Origin: Candidatus Hadarchaeum yellowstonense
Lineage (GTDB): Archaea > Hadarchaeota > Hadarchaeia > Hadarchaeales > Hadarchaeaceae
Direction of reading: 5' to 3'
Length of the DNA stretch: 51,958 bases
NCBI GenBank assembly: GCA_001515205.2
Contig: LQMQ01000039.1
Location: forward strand, 1 to 51,958
Position numbers and translations under genes: made by a program
Shown here: positions 22,689 through 35,764 of the stretch, piece by piece
How the letters are laid out: every line of letters starts with the position of its first letter
How positions within the stretch are numbered: the stretch's first letter is position 1
Notes under the pieces: generated by a model
Seen by the model: only the letters and a program-made list of their open reading frames with translations
Databases searched by the model: none
Told to the model about the DNA's origin: nothing

Positions 22689-23387
22689 ATGCTCCGCGAC
22701 AGCATAAGGGGGCTGGACAACGTCCTGAAGAACGACATCCCGCCGGGCTATGTGGTGCTGGTGACGGGCGGAGTGGGATCGATGAAATCCAGCTTCGTCT
22801 ACAGCGTCCTCTCCAGCTATCTCTCCCGGCACAGGGATGAATTCGGTGTTTACGTGACGCTGGAGGAGTCCCGGGAGAGCCATCTGAGAAACATGGAAAG
22901 CCTGGGGATTAAGAAGCCCGAGCACCTCCAGATTTTTGACTATCAGGACATCCGCAGGGAGTGGCGGGAGGAAGAGCCCTCGCTCAACATGGTGAGCATA
23001 ACCGAGGATGTGATCAAGTTTTACAAGGAAGAGATGAAGGAAAAGTTCACCGTTTTTTGCCTCGACTCCCTCAACGCCCTGCAAACACTCGCCAAGACGG
23101 ACAACCTGCGGAGGGAGAGCTACCACTTCTTCAACCTGCTCCGGGACAGCGGCCTGACCTCCTTCATCATCCAGGAGGCCCAGACCAGCGGCGAGGGGCG
23201 GAGTCACATCCCGGAGTCCTACCTCGCTGACGGGGTCATCGAGCTGGGCGTGATCGAGACCCCGGAGCTGGTCACGCGCTACATCCAGGTGAGAAAAATG
23301 CGCGCCTGCAGGCATTCCATGAAGAAGCACCAGCTGGTCGTCAACGAGGGCGGGCTGGAAGTGCTCGGACCGGTTTACGAAAGATGA
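22689..23387 (+). CDS. KaiC-like RecA-superfamily ATPase
   Basis: A 232-residue single-domain KaiC-like ATPase. GLDNVLKNDIPPGYVVLVTG leads to a Walker A GGVGSMKSSF, the Walker B strand is FTVFCLDSLNAL, and VYVTLEESRESHLRNMESLG is the usual KaiC motif with the catalytic Glu pair. Such archaeal proteins are thought to act as signal-transduction hubs with partner sensors. A TATA-like TTTATAAT lies about 30 bases upstream. It precedes the GH3-like/DUF835 operon by 144 bases and is likely its own transcription unit. Confidence 0.85.
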   Translation: MLRDSIRGLDNVLKNDIPPGYVVLVTGGVGSMKSSFVYSVLSSYLSRHRDEFGVYVTLEESRESHLRNMESLGIKKPEHLQIFDYQDIRREWREEEPSLNMVSITEDVIKFYKEEMKEKFTVFCLDSLNALQTLAKTDNLRRESYHFFNLLRDSGLTSFIIQEAQTSGEGRSHIPESYLADGVIELGVIETPELVTRYIQVRKMRACRHSMKKHQLVVNEGGLEVLGPVYER

Positions 23388-23464: not shown

Positions 23465-23475
23465 AGCTTATAAAG
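23465..23475 (+). promoter_or_regulatory. TATA-like element of the GH3-like/7TM/DUF835 operon
   Basis: AGCTTATAAAG lies about 57 bases upstream of the proposed ATG at 23532. It is the best TATA match in the 144-base gap and implies a leader of roughly 30 bases. No clear ribosome-binding site precedes the ATG. Confidence 0.4.
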
Positions 23476-23531
23476 GGGAACTTTCAGAAACTAAAACATC
23501 ACCTTAAAGAACGTCACCCCTCTGTCAAGAT

Positions 23532-25151
23532 ATGGTCGCTATGGGGGATGGCGAAGAGCTCTGGCAGAAGTATTGTTCTTTCCTGGAGAAACCGTTCTCC
23601 GAACAGCTGGAATACAACATCCGGGCCCGGGAAGAGTATTTCAAAAAGTGGCAGCGGACAAACATGGCCGCAAAGCTGTGTCCCGGCGGTGTTAACGGAT
23701 TTGAAGGGGTACCGCTGACGACCTACGATGACTACACCATCCTGCGTGACTTCGGAGAGAAGGTGGAGCAGCTCAGCAGAACCATCCCCAGAGAAAAGGG
23801 GGAGCTCTGGTGGGATTACTACCTCCGGATAGGTAAAATGGCTGCCCCGATGCTGGAGGGGTGGATGCCGGAGGATTTTGACTTCTGCGCCAAGACGTCG
23901 GGCAGCAGCGGGAAAAGCAAATGGCTGGCCTATGGTAAAACTTTCCGCGGAGAATGGGAGAGCCTCCTCTCCTACTTGGTGATGGCCTGCAGCGACAAGC
24001 CAGGGGATACCAAGCTGCGAAAGGGTGACACCTACCTGAACATCGTGGCGCCGGCGCCCTACGCCTCGGGCTACCAGATGCACCCCATCGAGCAGCTGCT
24101 CAGGCCGATACCGCCCCGAAGCGTCACCGACAACATCAGCAACATGAGGAAGAAAATGTGGATCATCCTCAGGGAAATTGAGAAGGGGGCCAGAATTGAT
24201 CTGGCGGGCGGGATCGCCTCGACCTTTTACATGATGGCCCAGTACTTCACCAGGCCGGATGAATTTTTCCGGGACTACTACCAGTCGATGAATTTTGGGG
24301 TAACGAAATTTCTGCTCTTTTTAAAGTATCTCCAGTGCAGGGTCAGGGGAAAAAAATACGGGAAGGCCAGGGAAATTTTGCCGGTGAAGGGGATTGGCCT
24401 CGGCGGCTACGACACGCACCTTTATCTGGACCACATCAGGGATGAATTTGGAGTTACGCCCACGACGGCCTACGGGTGTACGGAATTTGGCATTGTGATG
24501 TACGGTCATGCCGACAGAAAGCTGGATCTGATTCCGGATCTGCGCAACATGTATTTTGAGTTCCTGACCGAAAGCGGCGAGGTGAAAAGGATCGATGAGC
24601 TGAAAAAGGGAGAAATCTACGAACTGGTGGGGACACCATTTGGAACGATGCTGATGAGATATAACATCGAGGACAAATTCAAGGTTGTTGACTTTCGCGA
24701 CGACGGGCTGCCGATTTTCGAATTTGAGGGCAGAAAGAACGAGATAATCGACATCTACGGCTACTTCAGGGTTTCACAGGCGATCGCTGTCAGGGCCCTC
24801 TGCGAGGCCGGCCTGAAGGAAACGGACAAGTGGTGCCTCGCCAAGGCCACGAATCCCAGAGAACATCTGCTGTTCTTGATGGAGCGGGAGTGGGAACTCT
24901 CAGAGGAAAAAACCGCGGAGCTTCTGTTCAACGCCCTTTATCGGGTAAACCAGGAGTTTAAAAATTATGTGGATGATTTCGGGATAAAGGAACCGCAGGA
25001 GCTGATCAAGGTTCAGTACCTTAAAAAAGGTGCCTTTATGAGGTATACTATGAAAAAAATGAAGGAGGGAGTCCCAATAGGAAATATCAAACCACCCAAG
25101 ATAGCCAGCACGGATAAAAGCGATGACATCGAATTGCTCAGGAGTGTATGA
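23532..25151 (+). CDS. GH3-like acyl-adenylating enzyme (ANL superfamily)
   Basis: A 539-residue adenylate-forming enzyme. FCAKTSGSSGKSKWLAYGKT (about residues 117-136) is the ATP P-loop in the GH3/AMP-ligase form, TAYGCTEFGIVMYG (about 316-329) the second core motif, and YNIEDKFKVVDF with EFEGRKNEIIDIYG the hinge region. These enzymes activate a carboxylic acid as acyl-AMP. Plant GH3 proteins then conjugate it to an amino acid, and paralogues make CoA esters. The substrate here is unknown. The stop overlaps the ATG of the downstream 7TM gene (ATGA), placing it first in an operon of signalling genes rather than catabolic ones. Confidence 0.78.
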   Translation: MVAMGDGEELWQKYCSFLEKPFSEQLEYNIRAREEYFKKWQRTNMAAKLCPGGVNGFEGVPLTTYDDYTILRDFGEKVEQLSRTIPREKGELWWDYYLRIGKMAAPMLEGWMPEDFDFCAKTSGSSGKSKWLAYGKTFRGEWESLLSYLVMACSDKPGDTKLRKGDTYLNIVAPAPYASGYQMHPIEQLLRPIPPRSVTDNISNMRKKMWIILREIEKGARIDLAGGIASTFYMMAQYFTRPDEFFRDYYQSMNFGVTKFLLFLKYLQCRVRGKKYGKAREILPVKGIGLGGYDTHLYLDHIRDEFGVTPTTAYGCTEFGIVMYGHADRKLDLIPDLRNMYFEFLTESGEVKRIDELKKGEIYELVGTPFGTMLMRYNIEDKFKVVDFRDDGLPIFEFEGRKNEIIDIYGYFRVSQAIAVRALCEAGLKETDKWCLAKATNPREHLLFLMEREWELSEEKTAELLFNALYRVNQEFKNYVDDFGIKEPQELIKVQYLKKGAFMRYTMKKMKEGVPIGNIKPPKIASTDKSDDIELLRSV

Positions 25152-25969
25152 GCATGGCTGGCTGGTACTTCATCCCCATCACCCTTCAGTACTTGGTCGG
25201 GAGTGGGCTTATCTTCCTGATCTCCTTCTTCCTGATCTTGAAGAACAGCAAGAGCTGGGTCTACCGCTCCTTCTTTCTCTACGGGCTCTTCGCCGGCCTG
25301 TGGATTCTGATGGCGTTTTTTCACCGGAATGCGCCCAACGCGGAGCTATCCGCGGACTTCATCACCGTGGGCGCCGTTTTCGGCTTTACCTTCCCGGCCT
25401 TTCTGTTGATCACTTTTCTCATGCTCAAAAAGCAGAGCAAGCTTAACCTGCTGGCCTTACTTCCGGCCATATTTCTTGGAGCTATCACCCTTTACCTCAT
25501 GCCCTTTAAAATTTCCTGGACCACTTTCGGCTGGAGCTATGGCTACTCCAGCGATTGGTATTTCGCCACTGTTGTTGTTTTTAACTTGGCCTACATCGTG
25601 GCAAATCTGGCTGTGGGAATCGACCTAGTCAGGACTGCCCCAACTGAACTGCTGAGAAAAAAATATGCGGTGCTGCTGATCAGCTACTTCGTCTTCTACG
25701 TCGTTGCCGTCTCAATTAGCAACATGCTTCTTATCCGCTACATCGATGCCCCGCCTCTGGGTGGGATCTTCAGCGCCCTTGCTTTCCTTGCCATCGCGTG
25801 GGCCCTTTCTCTGAAATTCAACAGAAGCGCAAGTGAAAAATCGTCAAACGCAACCGGCGAGGAAGAAGCCATGTCAAAGAGGCTCCCTAGGCAAAGTTCT
25901 TTGACCGATAACCGGCTGGAGGGGGAGATGTGGAAAGAACCGCTGAGCCACCGTCCATTCTGGCGCTGA
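25148..25969 (+). CDS. Seven-TM membrane protein, putative sensor
   Basis: A 273-residue protein with seven predicted TM helices, starting LQYLVGSGLIFLISFFLIL, then around residues 36-57, 70-92, 98-118, 135-158, 172-195 and 203-222. A ~45-residue polar tail follows. The arrangement recalls the 7TM input modules of some archaeal and bacterial sensor kinases, but no kinase or other output domain is attached. It overlaps the GH3-like stop (ATGA) and the next DUF835 gene (40 bases). I do not recognise a specific family. Confidence 0.7.
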   Translation: MSMAGWYFIPITLQYLVGSGLIFLISFFLILKNSKSWVYRSFFLYGLFAGLWILMAFFHRNAPNAELSADFITVGAVFGFTFPAFLLITFLMLKKQSKLNLLALLPAIFLGAITLYLMPFKISWTTFGWSYGYSSDWYFATVVVFNLAYIVANLAVGIDLVRTAPTELLRKKYAVLLISYFVFYVVAVSISNMLLIRYIDAPPLGGIFSALAFLAIAWALSLKFNRSASEKSSNATGEEEAMSKRLPRQSSLTDNRLEGEMWKEPLSHRPFWR

Positions 25970-26817
25970 AATCTTTTCTCCACGAACTACTTCTGGCCCT
26001 GCCCGGAAAGGAACTCGGGGAAAACGTCATCGAGTTTCAGAGATTTCTGAAAAACGTGGGGTTGGGTGACGCCGTCTCCCTTGGGGAAAAGGGGAACATT
26101 TCAATCGAGCCCTCGGCACTGCCATCCCTAAACTTACCGGAAGCTGCGCGAAAAATTCTCCTTTATCTCGGCGATCAGATGGATCCCGTCCTGTCGGAAC
26201 TTTATGTAAAATTATTCCTGGAAACCTACGAAGAGTTCAGGTCCAGTTCCGAGCCGGCGGCCAACATCTGGCTGGGCCAGCTGCTGCGGGACTGCGGCGG
26301 CCTTCTCTCCGGTTATGGCATCATCGACCGGCTCCCTAAAAATGTGAAGATGCCCCAGCTTTTCCAGCTGATGAAGCCCGGATCAATCCACCTGAAAAAG
26401 GAGGAAAAACCCGCAGAAAGCTACGCCCTGGTCAAGGAGGCGGTCAACTATGGGTTCAAGGCCTTCTGCGTGACCAAGCTTGAGCCGAGCAAGATCAGAT
26501 ATCGCTACGGCCTGAAAAACTCAGAAATCATCTGGCTGACCTTCAAAAAGGTCAAGGAAAGGACTATAACCCCTGACGATCTGGCAGGGTTGAGTTCTTT
26601 TGTTTCAGGTGTTGGCCTCGGCTCGGTTGTCCTCTTCGACTGTTTCCAGGAGATAAAAGTCGTCAACGGCTTTAAAGGGGCGCTGGAGTTCTTCCGGGAA
26701 CTGAGGACCATTTGCGCCAAGAACAAATCCATCCTGGTGATCTCGATCAATCCAATGAAGCTCACCGAGGAACAGCTTTCCGCGCTGGATCAGGCGCTTG
26801 GAGGCCGCGAAAAATGA
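25930..26817 (+). CDS. Soluble DUF835-domain protein
   Basis: A 295-residue protein. The N-terminal ~145 residues are helical and end in LLRDCGGLLSGYGIIDRLP; residues ~150-290 are a DUF835 domain (MKPGSIHLKKEEKPAESY, IIWLTFKKVKERTITPDDL, VVLFDCFQEIKVVNGFKGAL, SILVISINPMKL). DUF835 is archaeal, is often fused to sensor modules and is thought to be related to the KaiC/RecA fold; no Walker motif is visible here. It starts at a GTG preceded by GGAGGGGGAGAT, inside the 3' end of the 7TM gene. It is probably a signal-relay partner of its neighbours. Confidence 0.78.
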   Translation: MERTAEPPSILALKSFLHELLLALPGKELGENVIEFQRFLKNVGLGDAVSLGEKGNISIEPSALPSLNLPEAARKILLYLGDQMDPVLSELYVKLFLETYEEFRSSSEPAANIWLGQLLRDCGGLLSGYGIIDRLPKNVKMPQLFQLMKPGSIHLKKEEKPAESYALVKEAVNYGFKAFCVTKLEPSKIRYRYGLKNSEIIWLTFKKVKERTITPDDLAGLSSFVSGVGLGSVVLFDCFQEIKVVNGFKGALEFFRELRTICAKNKSILVISINPMKLTEEQLSALDQALGGREK

Positions 26818-28682
26818 ACCTTCCAGAAATTCTTACGCTGCTGCTCGGCACCGCCATGCTGCTCCTAGTCCTCACTTTTGTAATTTATTCCATTGAGAAC
26901 ACCAGAAGGGCCAGGTATTCAACCACCTCGCTGTTGGTGACACTGGGCGCGATCTGCTTTTTAATCGCGGTGGCGGTCATGGGGGTCAGCACCCTTCTCC
27001 AACCCCTGGACATCCTGGTTCAAACAGCGGTGATTCTTTGGATGACCGGAGCGCTTTTGCTCCTAGTAGGACAAACGCTGCAAATCAAGGCCTTCAAAAA
27101 AATATATGGCTCCTTGAGGAGTGCCATTGGTCTCTCAAGCTCTAGGTGGTCCTTGGCCGGAATAATCACCCTCATCCTGGGAACTCCCGTCTATCTCTCG
27201 GCCCTGAACACCACAGTCAACGAAGGATTTACCTGGTACAGCGCCGTGAGCATCGTCATCTGGGTCTTCGTCTTTGCCTGCCTGACCGTTGCCGAAAGAA
27301 AACTGTTTCTGATCTCGAGCACCTCCCCTCCGGAAGCATCGATAACAAAACTGGTTCAAGACGACGCCCAAACTCTGGTAGCCTACTCAAGCCTCACGAA
27401 CAGGTTCCTGGCCCACGTGGTTCCCGTGATCGGTGTTTCCGGTCTCGAGGACGCCCTAGCCCCGTGTGTTGAGGAGCACCCCATCTTGTTCGATGACAAA
27501 CTTATCGATGGCGGAGTGCTCAACGTGGATCAGCTGATAAAAAACAGCCGGAGAATTCATGAGAGTGAAAGGATTTCAGAAATCTTCAGCGCCTTTTCGG
27601 ACCTGAACACCACCATAGTTGACCTCTACGCCGCGTTCACCTCCCCGGCCCAGGCGGCCTACATGGTCGGCATCGAGGCTGAACTTTACAGGGATGAGGT
27701 GGCTCTCTGGAGGCTGGGGGTTCCCCTAGGCAAATACAGCGAGGCCGTTTATGAAAGGGAGATAATCATCGGCCTGCCGGATGGCGTCGCCGATGTTGAC
27801 AAGGCCAAGAACTTCGCCTACCTCCTCTTCAAGCGCTATCTGGAGAGATTGCTGAACATGTGCAAGAAGTCCACCAGGGCCAGCATTAAGAGAGAGCTGA
27901 GCGAGATGGCGAGAAAAAACCCGGCGCTTGGCAGGGTTGACCTTTCTGAAGACGGCAAGATCGACCTCAGCAGGCTCTACCAGCACCTTTCAGGGACAAA
28001 GTTCAAGGATGGCATGCGGGAGCTGGTGGAAACCTTCTCCACCTTCGCTAACATCTGCTATGAAGCGGCCAAAAGGGACCTGGGGACAAAACAGGCCACG
28101 GAGATAGCCTCGGAGGTCTTTTCCGAACTCCTGCGCAAGTATGGTGGCTTCCTGCAGCACTACGGCATCACCGAGGCCATTCCAGAGGGAGTTCAGATCC
28201 GGGGCACCTATCTCCCCCTAGTCGCGGGCAAGAGCTATCTCGTCGAGGGGAGAAGCCCCAGACAGGCTTTCAAGATGTTTGCCGACCTGGTACGCTACGG
28301 CAATCCCGGCCTGGTGATAACAACCTCCCACCCGGCGCACGTGAGAAAGGAATACAGCATTCCGGACCGCATTACCGTCCTCTGGCTCTCAAAGGTGGAA
28401 GTTGATTACGCGGTCTCCCCATCGAACCTGGGAATTCTCCGCGATCGAATCACGGCTTTCGCTTCCAAGAGGGAGAACGCGGTTATCCTGCTCGAAGGGC
28501 TCGAATATTTGATCACCACCAATGGCTTCGACCTGACGCTGAAGCTGATGCACGACATAAGGGAGATTGTGGTGATCAACCGCGCCAGGCTCATCGTCCC
28601 GGTGGCACCAATGGCACTTGAGACCAAGCAGCTGGAGATGCTGAGGCGCTATATGGAGGTAGTTGAGACTGAGGAGGAGTGA
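26814..28682 (+). CDS. Membrane-bound DUF835-domain protein with five TM helices
   Basis: A 622-residue protein in three parts. Residues 1-165 hold five TM helices (ILTLLLGTAMLLLVLTFVIY, then around 40-60, 72-95, 110-130, 138-158). A soluble helical middle region of ~310 residues of unknown function ends in LLRKYGGFLQHYGITEAIP. The C-terminus is a DUF835 domain (GKSYLVEGRSPRQAFKMFAD, GNPGLVITTSHPAHVR, VILLEGLEYLITTNGFDLTL, LIVPVAPMALETKQLEML). The ATG overlaps the previous stop (ATGA) with GGAGG upstream. It shares its linker motif with the preceding protein, suggesting common descent. Confidence 0.75.
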   Translation: MNLPEILTLLLGTAMLLLVLTFVIYSIENTRRARYSTTSLLVTLGAICFLIAVAVMGVSTLLQPLDILVQTAVILWMTGALLLLVGQTLQIKAFKKIYGSLRSAIGLSSSRWSLAGIITLILGTPVYLSALNTTVNEGFTWYSAVSIVIWVFVFACLTVAERKLFLISSTSPPEASITKLVQDDAQTLVAYSSLTNRFLAHVVPVIGVSGLEDALAPCVEEHPILFDDKLIDGGVLNVDQLIKNSRRIHESERISEIFSAFSDLNTTIVDLYAAFTSPAQAAYMVGIEAELYRDEVALWRLGVPLGKYSEAVYEREIIIGLPDGVADVDKAKNFAYLLFKRYLERLLNMCKKSTRASIKRELSEMARKNPALGRVDLSEDGKIDLSRLYQHLSGTKFKDGMRELVETFSTFANICYEAAKRDLGTKQATEIASEVFSELLRKYGGFLQHYGITEAIPEGVQIRGTYLPLVAGKSYLVEGRSPRQAFKMFADLVRYGNPGLVITTSHPAHVRKEYSIPDRITVLWLSKVEVDYAVSPSNLGILRDRITAFASKRENAVILLEGLEYLITTNGFDLTLKLMHDIREIVVINRARLIVPVAPMALETKQLEMLRRYMEVVETEEE

Positions 28683-28773
28683 ACAGATGAACCTCGTCTT
28701 CTCGTCAAATTACCCCGGAGATATCGGGTTAAAAAGGAGGTTTTCCAAGGAAGAACCAAGGTGAGGAAAAAAT

Positions 28774-29742
28774 ATGTTGACGCCCAAAAACTCAGCCACG
28801 ATTCCGCTGGATAAAAAGGTCCTTCTGGTCAACGAGCTGCTGGTCAACGAATGCTCGCTGCTCCTTTACAGCCCGGGAGTTGATGTCTGGCGCTCCTTCG
28901 GCTCCTTCATCGACAACGGCCTGGCCAGCGGCGAGACCTGCCTCTACGCCTATGATGAGGCGGGTGTCAGGTTACAGCTGGAGACGATATTCGGCGAGGC
29001 CATCACCCAGGGCAGGCTGCTGAGATTTCCGCTGGGCAGGGGATATCTCCCCAAGGAAATCGAGGAGCTGAGCGAGAAGCTTGAGGCTCTTTGCGCCAAG
29101 TCCCGATCGGAAAAACGTCCCGCCAGGGTGCTGGTTGACTTCGGCGGCCTCGTCACCCGCCACAGCTTCGACAAGGCGGTTGGTCTCCTTAGGTCGTTAA
29201 TCTCCCTCAAGGAGGAGACATTTACCCTGCCTCAGGAGAAGAAAAAACATCCGGTTCTGCGGACGGCAATAATGGCTTTTAACCTGGAATCCCTTGACGA
29301 GGAGCAAATCAGGACGCTGATGGGGATCTGCAAAAATGTGATTATCTCCACGATCGATGGGACCACCACGCTGGCGCTGAACTTCCGGAGCCGCCGGCAG
29401 CTGGAACCTGAGGTCGAGCTGGCCCCGAAGGAATCCCTCGAACACTTTGTCAAGCGCCATCTGGAGACCATCGTCCTCTCCCTGCTGAGCGAGCATCCCA
29501 TGTGCGGCTATGACGTCATCAAGACGATCTACCAGCGCTACTACACCTCGCTGAGCCAAGGGACCGTTTACTCCCTTCTTTACTCGCTGGAGGCCAAAGG
29601 GCTGGTAACCGTGATGAAGGCGGAGTCACAGCGATCCAAGATCTATGTCCTGACCGATCAGGGGCGAAAGCTGGCGGAGAGCCGGATAAAGGACTTCGTC
29701 ACCGCCCAGAGGTATTTGCTGGAATCAATTCAGGGGACCTGA
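28774..29742 (+). CDS. MEDS-domain sensor fused to PadR-like winged helix
   Basis: A 322-residue protein. Residues ~20-210 resemble a MEDS domain (CSLLLYSPGVDVWRSFGSFI, GLASGETCLYAYDE, RVLVDFGGLVTRHSFDKAV), the KaiC-related sensor domain seen in DcmR and methanogen regulators. Residues ~230-320 are a PadR winged helix (LETIVLSLLSEHPMCGYDVI, LSQGTVYSLLYSLEAKGLV, YVLTDQGRKLAE). This makes a one-component ligand-sensing regulator. It lies 91 bases after the DUF835 operon with AGGTGAGG before the ATG, so it may be the operon's output or regulator. The ligand is unknown. Confidence 0.8.
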   Translation: MLTPKNSATIPLDKKVLLVNELLVNECSLLLYSPGVDVWRSFGSFIDNGLASGETCLYAYDEAGVRLQLETIFGEAITQGRLLRFPLGRGYLPKEIEELSEKLEALCAKSRSEKRPARVLVDFGGLVTRHSFDKAVGLLRSLISLKEETFTLPQEKKKHPVLRTAIMAFNLESLDEEQIRTLMGICKNVIISTIDGTTTLALNFRSRRQLEPEVELAPKESLEHFVKRHLETIVLSLLSEHPMCGYDVIKTIYQRYYTSLSQGTVYSLLYSLEAKGLVTVMKAESQRSKIYVLTDQGRKLAESRIKDFVTAQRYLLESIQGT

Positions 29743-29757
29743 GACAGACGCCAACTT

Positions 29758-30120
29758 TCACTCTCCATTTTGAAGGAAACTGAGGATCATCCTCTTGGCG
29801 TTGATGCGGTCCTGGAGTAAACCCCGGATTTTCTCCTCCATCCCCCTGACCGGCCGATACCTTTTCACCTTGCCGCTCGGCTCGTGCTGCACCAGCCCCC
29901 TTCTCTCCAGATCATGCAATAGTGGATAAATCGTCCCCGGGCTGAGCAGCAACCCAAATTTCCCGTGGATGGTCTTGATGATGTCGGTGCCGCATCTCGG
30001 CCGCTTCAGCAACAGCGCCAGGACCAGGTACTCCAGCTCATCCCTGACCGACTTCTGGACTGAGCCGGAGAAAACGGCTTTTTCATCACCGGCCTCATCA
30101 GGGGCTGTTCTCTCTTTCAA
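29758..30120 (-). CDS. PadR-family transcriptional regulator
   Basis: A 120-residue winged-helix protein. VRDELEYLVLALLLKRPRCG, IIKTIHGKFGLLLSPGTIYP and LLHDLERRGLVQHEPSGKVKRY are PadR features, with a C-terminal dimerising helix. It starts at a TTG at 30120; a TATATAAG at 30154-30147 on this strand is about 27 bases upstream, so the mRNA is nearly leaderless. It is convergent with the MEDS-PadR gene, 15 bases between stops, and divergent from the coiled-coil gene. Confidence 0.85.
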   Translation of the reverse strand: MKERTAPDEAGDEKAVFSGSVQKSVRDELEYLVLALLLKRPRCGTDIIKTIHGKFGLLLSPGTIYPLLHDLERRGLVQHEPSGKVKRYRPVRGMEEKIRGLLQDRINAKRMILSFLQNGE

Positions 30121-30146
30121 TCAACCACGATTCTGATATCTCCCTT

Positions 30147-30178
30147 CTTATATATCGATTTTTGTGTCGAAAATTGAT
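30147..30178. promoter_or_regulatory. PadR promoter and adjoining inverted repeat
   Basis: On the minus strand TATATAAG occupies 30154-30147. Directly upstream is an imperfect dyad, ATCGATTTT (30154-30162) against AAAATTGAT (30170-30178), with one mismatch. Overlap with the TATA box makes it a candidate PadR operator controlling its own gene and perhaps the divergent coiled-coil gene. Confidence 0.45.
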
Positions 30179-30238
30179 AGATTTTCCATAAGAAAACCCC
30201 TTTTTAAACCGGAAAGTTTCGCTCTCAGGGGTGCCCGG

Positions 30239-30637
30239 GTGAACGCGAGAGGTGACGCCGAGATCTGGATGAAAATGCTGGAAATGCTGCGGACAATCAG
30301 AGTCAGCAAAGAGAAACTGGAGGAGCTGGAAAGGATGGTAAATCGGCTGACGGCTGAGATGGCCGAGGCCTCGAGGCGAGGAGTATTGCCCAACCCGGGC
30401 GATGCCTACGAACAGCTGCAGGCCCTGGCCAGGTTGAGCTCCGCGATCGAAAGAATCGGCAGGGAGATGGAGGAGCTGGAAAGGCTCGAAAGGAAGATAC
30501 AGGCCTTGGAAAAGAGGATTGAGATGGATCAGCTGATAATGGACCAGATCCGGGAACAGCTGAGGAAGAAGCTCCAAGTTGTTATCAGGGAAGAGAAATC
30601 CGATCTAAAATTCAACCCCGAAAATCCGCCTGGTTAG
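30239..30637 (+). CDS. Coiled-coil protein of unknown function
   Basis: A 132-residue, strongly helical protein. Two charged heptad segments, SKEKLEELERMVNRLTAEMA and an Arg/Glu-rich stretch from IERIGREMEELERLERKIQA, are joined by a VLPNPGDAYEQL linker. No enzyme or DNA-binding motif is visible. I start it at GTG 30239, which has GGGGTG 5 bases upstream and a TTTTTAAAC TATA-like element about 35 bases upstream. The frame is open to GTG 30164, but that lies in the PadR operator region. It is divergent from padR and may be under its control. Confidence 0.6.
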   Translation: MNARGDAEIWMKMLEMLRTIRVSKEKLEELERMVNRLTAEMAEASRRGVLPNPGDAYEQLQALARLSSAIERIGREMEELERLERKIQALEKRIEMDQLIMDQIREQLRKKLQVVIREEKSDLKFNPENPPG

Positions 30638-30687: not shown

Positions 30688-30706
30688 CCGCGTGGGACTT
30701 TCACCC

Positions 30707-31921
30707 ATGACCGAAGAAATTTTAACCGGAAGCATCGGGCATGTTGAGTTCAACTACCCGAAAAAATACATCTTTGGACCGAACGCGGTTGATAATATCT
30801 GCCGTGAGGTGGAGCCCTTCGCCCCCAAGGGATCAAAAATTCTGATCGTGACCGACAAAAACCTGGTTGATCTGGGGCTGGCCAACAGGATTCTGAAGCC
30901 GCTGGAGGAGGAAAAATACCAACTGGCCATCTATGACCAGGCCTCACAGGAGCCCACCATAAGCATGGTGGAGAAGGTGGCGGAGAGGGCAAGGGCAGAA
31001 AAGCCAGCTCTTGTCATCGGCTTTGGTGGTGGCAGTGCCCTGGACATGGCCAAGTTCGCCTCCGCCGCCGTCACCAACCCGGGCCCGATGAAGGAGTACA
31101 TAACCTACCTTCAAGACAGCATCAAGGTGCCACCGGTTCCCAAGATACTCATCCCCACAACCGCTGGGACCGGCAGCGAGGCCTCAGGGTACGCCGTGGT
31201 CATCGAGGAGAAGGGCTACAAGGGGTTTGTGATGAGCCCCAAAATCGTCTCAGACGTGGCCATCGTCGACCCCACCCTCTCGCAGTCAATGCCGCCCAGG
31301 CTGACCGCCCACACCGGTCTAGACGCTCTCTCGCACGGGCTGGAGGCCGTCTTGTCCTTCACCGCCAACATGTTTTCCGACACCTATGCCTACCGGACCG
31401 TTGAACTCGCGGCCAAATACCTGCGGAGGGCATATCACCACGGAAAAGATCTGGTCGCTAGGGCGGGCATGGCTCTGGCCGCCACCTACGGCGGAATAGC
31501 GATCACCACCCCGGCCGCGGTCAACATCGGCCACTGCCTCGGTGAAACCATCGGTCCAAGGTACCGCATACCTCACGGTGCCGCCTGCGGCATAGTTCTG
31601 CCCTACATAACCAAGTTCAACATCGCCGCGTGGCCGGAAAGAGTTGCTTCGCTGGCGAAATTCTTCACCGATGAACCGGCTAAGGATGTGAGGGCGAGGG
31701 CCATGCAGGTGGTCGAGGGGCTGAAGGAGCTGCTGCTGGACCTCAACATGCCCCTCAGCCTGAAGGAGTTGAACGTCCCGCGAGACCAGCTGGCAGAAAT
31801 GGCCGAGTTCATCGCCAAGGAACAGCAGTACAACTACGGCCTACCCGACATCAACCCGGCAGTGATCACGCTGGAAAACACCAAGAAGCTGCTGAACGAC
31901 ATCTGGGAAGGGAACATCTAA
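30707..31921 (+). CDS. Iron-containing (group III) alcohol dehydrogenase
   Basis: A 404-residue NAD(P)-dependent alcohol dehydrogenase. ALVIGFGGGSALDMAKFAS is the nucleotide-binding GGGS motif and PTTAGTGSEASGYAVV follows. Metal ligands fall in GLDALSHGLEA (Asp and His), NIGHCLGE and RIPHGAACG. It interconverts an alcohol and an aldehyde or ketone. It is convergent with an AOR operon 40 bases away, so alcohol oxidation here could feed aldehyde to that AOR, or the reverse. Whether it uses Fe, Zn or another metal, and on which substrate, cannot be read. Confidence 0.88.
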   Translation: MTEEILTGSIGHVEFNYPKKYIFGPNAVDNICREVEPFAPKGSKILIVTDKNLVDLGLANRILKPLEEEKYQLAIYDQASQEPTISMVEKVAERARAEKPALVIGFGGGSALDMAKFASAAVTNPGPMKEYITYLQDSIKVPPVPKILIPTTAGTGSEASGYAVVIEEKGYKGFVMSPKIVSDVAIVDPTLSQSMPPRLTAHTGLDALSHGLEAVLSFTANMFSDTYAYRTVELAAKYLRRAYHHGKDLVARAGMALAATYGGIAITTPAAVNIGHCLGETIGPRYRIPHGAACGIVLPYITKFNIAAWPERVASLAKFFTDEPAKDVRARAMQVVEGLKELLLDLNMPLSLKELNVPRDQLAEMAEFIAKEQQYNYGLPDINPAVITLENTKKLLNDIWEGNI

Positions 31922-31961
31922 AAAAAGACTTTATCCGCTGGACTGGACAAAAGAAAAATTT

Positions 31962-32372
31962 TTAGATATTCTTGGCTTCCAGCGCCCCCGTGGGGCACCA
32001 CTTGACGCACTCAGGGTCTCCGCCGCAGAGATCACAGATCAGCGGCTTTCTGCCCCTCTCATCCATGCTGATCGCTGAGTAGGGGCAGCTCTTCACGCAC
32101 AGCCCGCAGCCCGTGCAGATATCGCTGTCCAGCAGGACGGCGTTGGTGGCCTCATCCTTCCTCAGCGCTGAAACGGGACAGGCCTTGACGCAGGACTGCT
32201 CGGCACATTGAATGCAGGCGACGGGGTACATTATCGTCCTGGGGTTGCCAATCGCCACCTGAACCCGGGAAAGATGGGGATCAAAATTCCCGGTCTTTTT
32301 GAAGGAGCAGGCCAGCTCACAAGTCCTGCAGCCAACGCATTTTTCAGGGTGAATTTCCAGCTTGACCGGCAC
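31962..32372 (-). CDS. aorA: Four-cluster polyferredoxin, AorA-like
   Basis: A 136-residue iron-sulfur protein with 16 Cys in four groups: CVGCRTCELAC, CIQCAEQSCVKAC, CTGCGLCVKSC and CDLCGGDPECVKWC. It has the same layout as the polyferredoxin at 1082-1561 but a shorter C-terminus. It follows the second AOR by 9 bases and is last in the symporter-AOR-polyferredoxin operon. It should pass electrons from the tungsten subunit to ferredoxin or another acceptor. Confidence 0.85.
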   Translation of the reverse strand: MPVKLEIHPEKCVGCRTCELACSFKKTGNFDPHLSRVQVAIGNPRTIMYPVACIQCAEQSCVKACPVSALRKDEATNAVLLDSDICTGCGLCVKSCPYSAISMDERGRKPLICDLCGGDPECVKWCPTGALEAKNI

Positions 32373-32381
32373 AAGCTCACC

Positions 32382-34232
32382 TCACAGGAACTCCCCGAGA
32401 CCCAGCTCCGCCAGCTTCTCCCTGGTCGGGATGCCGTTGGAGTCCCACTTTCTCAACCGGTAATAATCATCAAGCAGCCTGTTCAGGTCTGCGGAGCTGA
32501 TCATGTGGCCCTTAGCTGGTCCGGAGGGCAGGGGCTCCTCCTTAAACCTCCTGGGGAGATCGTCATCCTTTCGCGTGAAGCCCTCGCGAACGTTGAACAT
32601 CCGGGTCAGGTTCCAGACGCGCTCGCCGATCTTCAAGAACTCCTCAGCGCTAATTTCCCATCCGGTGGCCGCGGAAAGCAGTTTCGCCGAGTCCTCCGGC
32701 ATGAGTCCCGTCCGGCTGAAGTCGCAGCCGACCAGCGTGTCCACCGCCGCAAACCAGTCCTGCTCCCACTTCACGATCTCCGCCTTGCCCTCCAGCGATA
32801 GCCGCTCCACGGGACCGGATGGCCCGGGGATACCTTCGACCTCATAGCCGATCGGCCAGCCCCTTTCATGACAACCGCCGCGATCGGCCGTGGCCAGGGC
32901 AAGGCCCATCCCGGGAGCACCACGCGGGGGCCAAGCGGGGGTCTCCAGCCCCTTGACGTGAATCGCGAAATCTCCGGCCTTACCACCAACCCTTTCCGCG
33001 ACTCCCTTCACCCCCTCGGCCAGTAGGTCACCGACGCCCTCTCGATAAGATATCTTCCTGATCAGCTTCAAAACCGCCTCGCCGTTGCCGAACCTCAGCC
33101 TCAATGCCTCCAGCTCGGGATCCCTCCAGATCCCCCTCTCAAAAAGTTCCATCGCAAATCCAATCACCCCGCCCGCGGAGATGGTGTCCAGCCCCAGTTC
33201 ATCGCAGAGGTAATTGGCGTAGGCGACCACCTCGGGATCCGTCAGGCCGCAGTTGGCGCCCAGCAGCCCGGTGGTCTCGTACTCTATGCCGTCCAGCACC
33301 GTGCCGCTGTGGGGTCCCCTTCTGATGAAAGAGATTGCCGAGCAGATTATCGGGCAGGCATAGCAGGCCGCCCGCCTCAGCCACAACAGCTTGCTCTGGG
33401 AAACTCCGGAGAGCCTCTCGCCTTCCTCGATGTGCCCGTCCTGGAAGTTCCTCGTGGGGAAGAATCCCTGCATGTTGGAGAACTCGACCGACCCCGCCGT
33501 CCCGTATTTGCTCCATACCGTCCGCACGGCCTCGCTTTCCAGCAAGGTTCGATGAAACTTTCTGGCCGTTTCAAAAAACTCCTGAGGCTTTGCCACCCCC
33601 ACTGAACCGGTGCCCCGGACGGCCACCGCCTTGAGGTTCTTGGAGCCCATTACCGCCCCCAGGCCACCGCGCCCCGCCTGCCTCTTGACATCGCAGTCGA
33701 TCAGGGCAAACCTCACCCTCCTCTCCCCCGCAGGGCCGATGCAGGCCACCTTGACCTTGGCGTCGCCCAGCTCCCTCTTTATGGAGAGGCTGGTCTGGGT
33801 GGTGTCCTGTCCCCTCAGCCCCGAGGCATCTCTTAATTCCACATGACCGTCATTGATCCAGAGGTAGCTCAGCCTCTCCGCCCTTCCCCTGATGACCAGG
33901 GCGTCGTATCCCGCGTACTTCAGCTCCTGAATGAAATGGCCGCCGAAATATGAGTCGGAAAAGGTGCCCGTGAGGGGCGACTTGGCGCAGACCAGTCCCC
34001 TCTGAGAGGGGGCGATGGTGCCGGTCAGCGGGCCGGTGGCAAAGATCAACACATTCTGTTCACTGAAGGGATCGGTACCCGGTTTCACCATCTTGTACAG
34101 CAGCCAGGCGGCCAGCCCCTTGCCACCCACAAGCTTCCTCGTCACGGCGGGATCCAGCGGCCGCTCCGCAGTGTTGCCACGGGACAAATCAACCTCCAGA
34201 ATCTTCCCGCAGTAGCAGGGAGCTGGAGTCAT
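32382..34232 (-). CDS. aorB: Aldehyde:ferredoxin oxidoreductase, second copy (AorB-like)
   Basis: A 616-residue tungsten AOR-family protein. LVGGKGLAAWLLYKMV, GPLTGTIAPSQRG and GRGGLGAVMGSKNLKAVAVRG are the pterin-region motifs. Cluster ligands are Cys290, Cys293, Cys297 (CYACPIIC) and Cys503 (LVGCDFS). It differs considerably from the first AOR (1558-3426) and has the higher GC of the window, so the two are not a recent duplication. The start lies 3 bases after the symporter stop. No AorC-like flavoprotein is beside it. Confidence 0.9.
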   Translation of the reverse strand: MTPAPCYCGKILEVDLSRGNTAERPLDPAVTRKLVGGKGLAAWLLYKMVKPGTDPFSEQNVLIFATGPLTGTIAPSQRGLVCAKSPLTGTFSDSYFGGHFIQELKYAGYDALVIRGRAERLSYLWINDGHVELRDASGLRGQDTTQTSLSIKRELGDAKVKVACIGPAGERRVRFALIDCDVKRQAGRGGLGAVMGSKNLKAVAVRGTGSVGVAKPQEFFETARKFHRTLLESEAVRTVWSKYGTAGSVEFSNMQGFFPTRNFQDGHIEEGERLSGVSQSKLLWLRRAACYACPIICSAISFIRRGPHSGTVLDGIEYETTGLLGANCGLTDPEVVAYANYLCDELGLDTISAGGVIGFAMELFERGIWRDPELEALRLRFGNGEAVLKLIRKISYREGVGDLLAEGVKGVAERVGGKAGDFAIHVKGLETPAWPPRGAPGMGLALATADRGGCHERGWPIGYEVEGIPGPSGPVERLSLEGKAEIVKWEQDWFAAVDTLVGCDFSRTGLMPEDSAKLLSAATGWEISAEEFLKIGERVWNLTRMFNVREGFTRKDDDLPRRFKEEPLPSGPAKGHMISSADLNRLLDDYYRLRKWDSNGIPTREKLAELGLGEFL

Positions 34233-34234
34233 TT

Positions 34235-35764
34235 TTAATCACTTGGCTTTAGCGCCTTGAATTTTTCATACTGCGGCTTGGTGGCCAAGGAAACTATTAT
34301 GAAGGCGATCGCCGAAAACAGAATCCCCACCGGGAGGTAAAACGGATACTCCGGCCAGGGCCTGGGGACCTCAATGCCAAAGAGGTCACCTACATAGTTG
34401 TAGAAGGCAAACACGGCTCCCACTATCATTCCAGCCAAGGCTCCGGCTTCGTTGGCCCTCTTCCAGACGAACCCGCCTATCAAGGGAACCAAACAGCCAC
34501 AGGCTAGAATGTCCGCGGCCAGCCACAACACCCACAGCATGTCAGGAAGGGTGACACCAACGCCAAAAGCCAAAACAGTTATGATGGTGGTGGCGACCAG
34601 TCCCACCACGAACAGGCCCCGCGGCGTCGCTTTCTTATTTATATATCTGTGGTAAACGTCCTCGCACAACAGCAATGCCCCTGAGTTGATAGCGGTGTCA
34701 GCCGATGACATCACCGTGGCCAGAATCCCTGCCAGAGCAAACCCAAACAGCAACGGCGGGAATATTGATTTAGCCAGAGAGGGCAGGACGCCAACGCCCT
34801 CGAGGCCGGGCACAACCTTTACCGCCGCCATGCCGCCCAAGGTATAAATGAAGTACAGCGGGATGAAAATGATGGCCGCAACCAAAAATGCCTTCATCAC
34901 CAGCCTGGGGTTCTTCGCGGCCAGAATTCTCTGCCACATGTCGGCCTCCAAGAACCAAGCCAAGGAGAAGGAAATGGCATAAGCAAAATTGTACCTGAAG
35001 TTGTCGAAAAAGTCCAGAAAGCCGGGCGCGCCAAGCTCCTGGGGAAGCTGGGCGAGGGCTCCAAAACCGCCTATCGCGTTCAGGGCGATAAAGCTCGTCG
35101 CAATACAAATGATGTTCAGCAAAATGAACTGAAAGATATCGGTATAGATAACCGCTCTAAACCCGCCGATCACGGTATAAAAGTAAACTACCGCCGTGAT
35201 CGCCAATAACCCTACCAAGTAAGGCATGTCCAGAGCCACGGAAAGGGATTCACCGCCGCCGATTAGCTCGGAAGCCGCCCAGGTCATCATGTACCAGATA
35301 CCAAGCAAAGCCAGAATTATCCTGACCTTTGGACCATAGCGCCACTCAAATATCTGCGGCTGGGAGATGGCGTTGGTTTTTCTGATCCTGTAGGCCAAAA
35401 CGGCGACGACGGCAGTGGCAAAAACAGTTGGGAAGCCCATGATCCACCAAGTGCTCACGCCGCCTGTGTAGGCCGCATTATAGGAAATCAGCGCGGAAAT
35501 TCCCGTCCACGAGGCCCCAACCGTGCAGACCAGCGCCCAGAAACCGAGTTCCCTAGAGGCTAGGAAGTATTCCTCTTCCGTATGTCTTTTTCTTGATATT
35601 ATATAACTGTATAATCCTATCACTATCAGAATCACGCCATAGATGACAAGGCCAACCAGGACCTCTGCGTCTATGTTATCAACCTCTCCTTTTGGTGCTA
35701 CGATTTTCTCTCGTCTGCTATTTAAATAGTTTTCGGCAAATTTTCTGACGCGCCATTGAAGCAA
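34235..35764 (-). CDS. Sodium:solute symporter (SSS family)
   Basis: A polytopic membrane protein with about 13 TM segments. YFLASRELGFWALVCTVGAS, SQPQIFEWRYGPKVR, ELIGGGESLSVALDMPYL and ILATVMSSADTAINSGALLL (a Na+-site motif) are SSS features. The coordinates run to the only canonical in-frame start, a TTG at 35764. That leader contains a palindromic TATA box (35718-35729). More likely translation begins at an ATA at 35674, which would give MDAEVLVGLVIYG after a GGAGAGG ribosome-binding site. It is the first gene of an operon with the second AOR, so it may import the carboxylate or other substrate of that enzyme; this is inferred. Confidence 0.85.
   Translation of the reverse strand: MLQWRVRKFAENYLNSRREKIVAPKGEVDNIDAEVLVGLVIYGVILIVIGLYSYIISRKRHTEEEYFLASRELGFWALVCTVGASWTGISALISYNAAYTGGVSTWWIMGFPTVFATAVVAVLAYRIRKTNAISQPQIFEWRYGPKVRIILALLGIWYMMTWAASELIGGGESLSVALDMPYLVGLLAITAVVYFYTVIGGFRAVIYTDIFQFILLNIICIATSFIALNAIGGFGALAQLPQELGAPGFLDFFDNFRYNFAYAISFSLAWFLEADMWQRILAAKNPRLVMKAFLVAAIIFIPLYFIYTLGGMAAVKVVPGLEGVGVLPSLAKSIFPPLLFGFALAGILATVMSSADTAINSGALLLCEDVYHRYINKKATPRGLFVVGLVATTIITVLAFGVGVTLPDMLWVLWLAADILACGCLVPLIGGFVWKRANEAGALAGMIVGAVFAFYNYVGDLFGIEVPRPWPEYPFYLPVGILFSAIAFIIVSLATKPQYEKFKALKPSD
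35718..35729 (-). promoter_or_regulatory. Palindromic TATA box for the symporter-AOR operon
   Basis: CTATTTAAATAG is a perfect 12-bp palindrome. Counting about 26 bases on gives a transcript start near 35697, leaving GGAGAGG (35689-35683) and the candidate ATA start (35674) in the leader. Confidence 0.55.

Follow-up and report, generated by a model that had tools for sequence, protein, structure and literature searches.

A predicted GH3-like acyl-adenylating enzyme encoded with a candidate split 7TM/DUF835 receptor and KaiC-type signalling proteins in Candidatus Hadarchaeum yellowstonense

Signalling through KaiC, DUF835, and MEDS domains is familiar, as are receptors of the HisKA_7TM type. 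DUF835 and MEDS are published as inactivated-KaiC (iKaiC) signalling domains and KaiC hubs have been described in archaea (Galperin 2018, PMC5847659; for KaiC/iKaiC signal hubs, Makarova 2017 as cited there), while HisKA_7TM receptors (PF16927) place seven transmembrane (TM) helices before a cytoplasmic transducer. Plant GH3 acyl acid amido synthetases such as JAR1/GH3.11, which tune a hormone acid, are three-domain adenylating enzymes with a P-loop and YGxTE, RYxxxD, and C-terminal GQxKxP motifs. A prokaryotic GH3-like acyl-amide synthetase is OlsH, the planctomycete ornithine lipid enzyme, and a bacterial GH3 of this general family makes lyso-ornithine lipid (PMC12493201). In Methanosaeta harundinacea, the FilI/FilR locus couples acyl-amide chemistry with a two-component-type protein, carboxyl-acyl homoserine lactones being the reported products of FilI (PMC3991700). 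Here, we describe a locus in contig LQMQ01000039.1 of Candidatus Hadarchaeum yellowstonense (assembly GCA_001515205.2), analysed over its 51,958 nucleotides (the window), in which genes for a GH3-like enzyme, a 7TM protein, and a KaiC-derived relay form a partnership that has the look of a genuine signalling arrangement not described before.

The locus shares with the archaeal KaiC/iKaiC hubs a DUF835 domain at the output end of a sensor, a nearby KaiC ATPase, and a MEDS-like regulator; it differs in having 7TM and DUF835 split into two genes and in the GH3-like gene, an enzyme of a kind that the part of PMC5847659 drawn on here does not report. Its transducer is DUF835 and not the histidine kinase of HisKA_7TM receptors. 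OlsH adjoins lipid genes, whereas the window GH3-like gene adjoins sensors and a regulator; FilI/FilR comes near it as an archaeal locus with acyl-amide chemistry. The window genome (G000; 1.23 Mb, about 95% complete) has uncultured Hadesarchaea, known as metagenome-assembled genomes, as close relatives. Comparisons were made with a sister species (G017) and with a further relative that carries GH3 loci (G009). The genes and elements concerned are as follows.

22689-23387, + strand: KaiC-family ATPase (Pfam ATPase/KaiC, 117 bits), with its own TATA-like promoter; syntenic and 91% identical in G017
23467-23508, + strand: candidate promoter/operator ahead of the GH3-like gene, made up of a TATA-like element and a conserved 5′ leader block (window versus G017)
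23532-25151, + strand: predicted GH3-like acyl-adenylating enzyme (Pfam GH3_M, 28.9 bits; JAR1 profile match; ratio of nonsynonymous to synonymous substitution rates, dN/dS, about 0.07)
25148-25969, + strand: 7TM receptor-like protein of divergent HisKA_7TM type (G009 orthologue; profile match; AlphaFold2 model of the G009 fusion)
25930-26817, + strand: DUF835a, a helical domain followed by DUF835 (Pfam, 60.1 bits)
26814-28682, + strand: DUF835b, a five-TM anchor, two helical repeats (amino acids 181-460), and DUF835 (Pfam, 100.1 bits)
28774-29742, + strand: MEDS-like-PadR transcription regulator, likely the output (PadR, 54.6 bits; MEDS, 20.2 bits, below cut-off)

All five open reading frames (ORFs) from the GH3-like gene to MEDS-like-PadR are present at these coordinates, as a preliminary description of this DNA had it; that description missed the upstream KaiC-family ATPase, which G017 conserves. 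It had also reported four genes overlapping at their stops and starts, which holds for the window in the form of ATGA overlaps at 25148-25151 (GH3-like stop, 7TM start) and 26814-26817 (DUF835a/DUF835b) and a 40-nt overlap between 7TM and DUF835a, whose GTG start lies at 25930. The DUF835a/DUF835b overlap is conserved, unlike the 40-nt one: the 7TM/DUF835a junction becomes a 55-nt gap in G017 and a gene fusion in G009. An origin of this split by frameshift or pseudogene formation was rejected, as the ORFs are separate in G017 too. G017 carries the same genes in the same order on two contigs, the break falling between GH3 and 7TM, and dN/dS between the two species is roughly 0.05 to 0.14 for every gene but a convergent PadR gene downstream (approximate values, dS being near or above 1). 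The locus therefore consists of real genes under purifying selection and not of artefacts. Starting at the TATA-like element and running into the GH3 leader, some 40 nt have hardly changed between the window and G017 amid diverged flanks, and the same comparison revealed no comparable conserved promoter before MEDS-like-PadR, which starts 91 nt after DUF835b. This pattern fits one predicted operon spanning GH3 to MEDS-like-PadR.

The enzyme at the head of this putative operon likely activates a carboxylic acid. A profile built from the three full-length copies of its subfamily retrieved only GH3 enzymes from the PDB, with JAR1 first (E = 1.4e-6), and the GH3_M model scored above its Pfam cut-off of 23.6 bits in each copy (28.9, 25.1, and 35.3 bits). 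All ATP/AMP motifs are present, namely, the P-loop TSGxxGxxK, YGxS/TE, RYxxxD, and the C-terminal GQxKxP in the form GxxKxP; in the window they read TSGSSGKSK, YGCTE, RYNIED, and C-terminal KMKEGVPIGNIKPPK. The last two vary among copies (RYNIED with GNIKPP in the window, RYRIGD with GQIKPP in G009), so that at the Gly position of RYxxGD the window and G017 have Glu, whereas G009 retains Gly. Since neither the adenylation motifs nor the C-terminal GxxKxP are disrupted, the protein is likely an acyl-adenylating enzyme. From JAR1/GH3.11, its closest PDB relative, it has diverged far (30 bits across the C-terminal half), and it differs in its setting, a prokaryotic operon with receptors. A search for GH3 in plasmids returned no match.

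The 7TM protein and DUF835a probably work as one receptor, for which their fusion into a single gene in G009 is the strongest evidence. The N-terminal part of this fusion shares 38% identity with the window 7TM protein, and its C-terminal part 33% with DUF835a over 292 amino acids. An AlphaFold2 model of the fusion (three sequences; predicted local distance difference test, pLDDT, 72) contains exactly seven TM helices, the fourth and fifth separated by a hairpin; a helical domain and then an alpha/beta domain follow. For the window protein, an N-out/C-in orientation is predicted, with which the positive-inside charges broadly agree. A Pfam search gave this protein no family of its own. HisKA_7TM fell short of its 28.6-bit cut-off both in the window protein (6.8 bits) and, narrowly, in the G009 orthologue (25.5 bits over its full length; E = 1.4e-5). 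Profile-profile comparison matched the 7TM profile to clear Hadarchaeal HisKA_7TM-DUF835 proteins (94.5%; E = 8e-8), and all HisKA_7TM matches found in the class Hadarchaeia lie in DUF835 genes or frames. Judged by these comparisons, the window 7TM protein is probably a divergent HisKA_7TM receptor domain. The 7TM/DUF835a alignment yielded no match in a sequence search of solved structures. The window genome has a second 7TM-DUF835 gene (G000:C21:270-1424; L053, L114), with an in-frame TAA in its 7TM part, possibly a pseudogene or an assembly error.

Both DUF835 proteins exceed the Pfam cut-off for PF05763 (33.1 bits). Hydropathy of the DUF835b orthologue gives five TM segments, in agreement with the five-helix anchor announced in the preliminary description, which had also cast DUF835 as the relay. 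The placement of the domain accords with that role: in the class, DUF835 stands at the C terminus of PAS, GAF, and 7TM sensors and also occurs inside REC proteins, and G009 joins the helical domain of DUF835b to a histidine kinase core in place of DUF835. Because it is C-terminal to sensors and swapped with a kinase core, the occupation of the transducer (output) position by DUF835 is supported on comparative grounds. The helical domain involved, of about 120 to 140 amino acids with a beta-hairpin, has no Pfam family; it occurs twice in DUF835b (92% in a repeat comparison) and is also present in the G009 histidine kinase (L005 9895-11976), with 33% identity between the two proteins; DUF835a has a related segment ahead of its DUF835 domain. 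The AlphaFold2 model of DUF835b is of low confidence (pLDDT 57), and fold matches for its helical repeats were uninformative.

As modelled, DUF835 appears to resemble FlaH and KaiC but to lack Walker A, in line with the published inactivated-KaiC label. Foldseek placed FlaH and KaiC on top (probability 1.0; weak E values, 6e-3 at best), DUF835 matched the ArlH profile weakly (E = 0.0066), and no Walker A motif was found in 21 aligned DUF835 domains. The upstream KaiC ATPase has the Walker A sequence GGVGSMKS, with Met for the usual Gly before Lys, kept in G017, and retains Walker B and the catalytic EE. In the window genome, we detected no REC domain and no histidine kinase, and its sole HATPase_c domain belongs to topoisomerase VI B; it has six DUF835 and five KaiC-family matches. 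A histidine kinase together with a response regulator was found in G009 and not in G000. Since G000 is without REC and has HATPase_c only in topoisomerase VI B, a phosphorelay is unlikely in this genome, about 5% of which is missing from the assembly, and the relay is probably of KaiC type.

The gene following the DUF835 proteins had been described as a MEDS-PadR regulator. Its PadR part (PF03551) is well above cut-off (54.6 versus 27 bits), whereas MEDS (PF14417) remains below it (20.2 and 21.6 versus 29.8 bits), leaving that half of the label tentative, hence MEDS-like. Full-length MEDS-like-PadR turned up in no genome but G000 and G017, each of which has the GH3 locus; in them it takes the place of the REC and histidine kinase proteins of G009.

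The subfamily of the window enzyme occurs in 3 of the 27 genomes of the class and, as far as peptide patterns reach, is limited to Hadesarchaea in our genome collection; other archaea among 394 genomes gave only remote matches. Every copy with readable neighbours adjoins signalling genes. G009 has two copies at two loci. The first reads REC, GH3, 7TM-DUF835 fusion, UbiA, helical domain-histidine kinase, KaiC, KaiC; the second holds a GH3 gene truncated where the contig ends and, diverging from it, a REC-DUF835-winged-helix gene. All that G009 has of REC domains (two), DUF835 domains (two), and convincing HisKA-HATPase proteins (one) lies at these two loci, and the chance of finding three such genes near GH3 is 6e-7 to 3e-6, for random placement among about 1290 genes and neighbourhoods of 12 to 20 genes. 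The GH3-signalling partnership is thus unlikely to be a matter of chance. A divergent extra UbiA prenyltransferase gene (L005 8639-9610) overlaps the G009 7TM-DUF835 gene by ATGA; UbiA was rejected as a fixed partner of the module, being near GH3 in G009 only. The preliminary description had held that its idea would be refuted by GH3-like homologues placed consistently in catabolic operons lacking DUF835 or 7TM neighbours, and the outcome was mixed. The GH3 genes of 16 other archaeal genomes show no DUF835 or 7TM-DUF835 neighbour within the stretch read, but they represent other, more canonical GH3 branches, while no copy of the window branch was observed apart from signalling genes; the GH3-DUF835 pairing therefore appears particular to the window subfamily. 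Taken with the G009 fusion and the transducer position of DUF835, these neighbourhoods support the locus genes as one functional, recurring unit.

We interpret the locus as a receptor module whose acid-adjusting enzyme sits in the sensing operon and sets the level of the sensed compound, a tentative reading to which we assign a probability of roughly 0.45. The 7TM protein and the five-TM protein would detect a compound located in the membrane or at its surface. The DUF835 domains, KaiC-like and devoid of the ATP-binding loop, may then switch partners or alter their oligomeric state, relaying the signal through protein-protein contact to the neighbouring KaiC ATPase, the MEDS-like-PadR repressor, or both, without His-Asp phosphotransfer. 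MEDS-like-PadR would adjust transcription, probably of its own operon as well. The GH3-like enzyme would adenylate a carboxylic acid and conjugate it, most likely to an amine, thereby setting the level of the compound detected by the receptor, by analogy with plant GH3 and hormone acids; that it makes or removes the ligand is something we infer. The more specific version, a hormone-like archaeal circuit in which the enzyme produces an acyl-amide (or inactivates the corresponding acid), a 7TM protein with the topology of a G-protein-coupled receptor senses it, and KaiC-derived pseudo-ATPase domains instead of kinases signal to a PadR repressor, seems unlikely. Several observations weigh against the receptor-module interpretation. 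The GH3 membership of the enzyme is divergent by profile score: the N-terminal GH3 Pfam model reaches 11 to 18 bits and the C-terminal one at most 17.3 bits, below the 23.6-bit cut-off and in partial alignments, for which reason we label it GH3-like. Conservation in the 7TM protein shows no bias towards the extracytoplasmic half over the cytoplasmic one (P = 0.66), and no match was obtained between the small KaiC and DUF835 profiles built in this analysis. The module is limited to three genomes, and DUF835 does not need this GH3, since 6 of the 27 genomes have DUF835 proteins without it.

The main rival explanation makes GH3 a regulated output: the receptors would sense an outside acid or stress and switch on the enzyme, which would detoxify the acid or activate it for metabolism, making no signal. 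The position of GH3 as first gene behind the conserved promoter suits this view, as do archaeal GH3 genes elsewhere without DUF835 neighbours and an alcohol dehydrogenase, an aldehyde:ferredoxin oxidoreductase, and a symporter located 1 to 6 kb downstream, which could make acids from alcohols. In the available G009 and G017 contigs, however, these metabolic genes do not appear next to GH3, while the receptors stay, and the two GH3 copies of G009, each accompanied by a sensor gene of its own, are as compatible with signalling as with catabolism. We consider a purely metabolic output somewhat unlikely.

Archaeal membranes rarely use fatty acyl chains, which counts against another possibility, that GH3 makes an amide-containing membrane lipid or a modified isoprenoid and that membrane state is what the two membrane sensors track. 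Lipid synthesis has a precedent in the OlsH type of enzyme, and the UbiA gene overlapping the G009 receptor gene speaks for it, yet the window genome holds nothing close to this type of UbiA (best 25 bits), nor does the window operon, and no acyltransferase accompanies GH3; we regard this explanation as improbable. Adjacency by chance or joint transfer without a functional link would accord with the count of three genomes, two of them sister species, and with the finding of no GH3-DUF835 pairing outside Hadarchaeia. Set against it are the tight ATGA coupling, the purifying selection, and the independent recurrence at two G009 loci (chance about 1e-6), which make it very improbable.

The receptor-module interpretation bears on the proposal that KaiC/DUF835 proteins are archaeal signalling hubs, in that the operon ties such proteins to an enzyme with predictable chemistry: the acid activated by the GH3-like enzyme would give a candidate ligand for the 7TM-DUF835 receptor. 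If true, the adjustment of a signal acid by conjugation, known from plant GH3 enzymes, would extend to archaea. The preliminary description had called the whole system undescribed. This applies to the GH3 link, which appears new, and not to KaiC/DUF835/MEDS signalling, already published (PMC5847659). A limited literature search found no earlier description of a GH3-DUF835 link, of a split 7TM/DUF835 receptor, or of a kinase-DUF835 swap within a locus type.

Three further observations concern the region downstream of MEDS-like-PadR, beginning with this gene.

29758-30120, - strand: second, convergent PadR protein, of uncertain association with the locus; a paralogue of the PadR part of MEDS-PadR

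It is 35% identical to the MEDS-PadR wing and is kept in G017 at 53% identity, evolving faster than the other genes (dN/dS about 0.33). For the locus as a whole, a defence-system identity was rejected, PADLOC having given only weak matches of the PadR helix-turn-helix region. A conserved coiled-coil protein lies next to the convergent PadR (29758-30637), and both are kept in G017. Beyond them, 30692-35764 encodes an Fe-alcohol dehydrogenase, a 4Fe-4S protein, an aldehyde:ferredoxin oxidoreductase, and a sodium/solute symporter, a possible alcohol-to-acid pathway.

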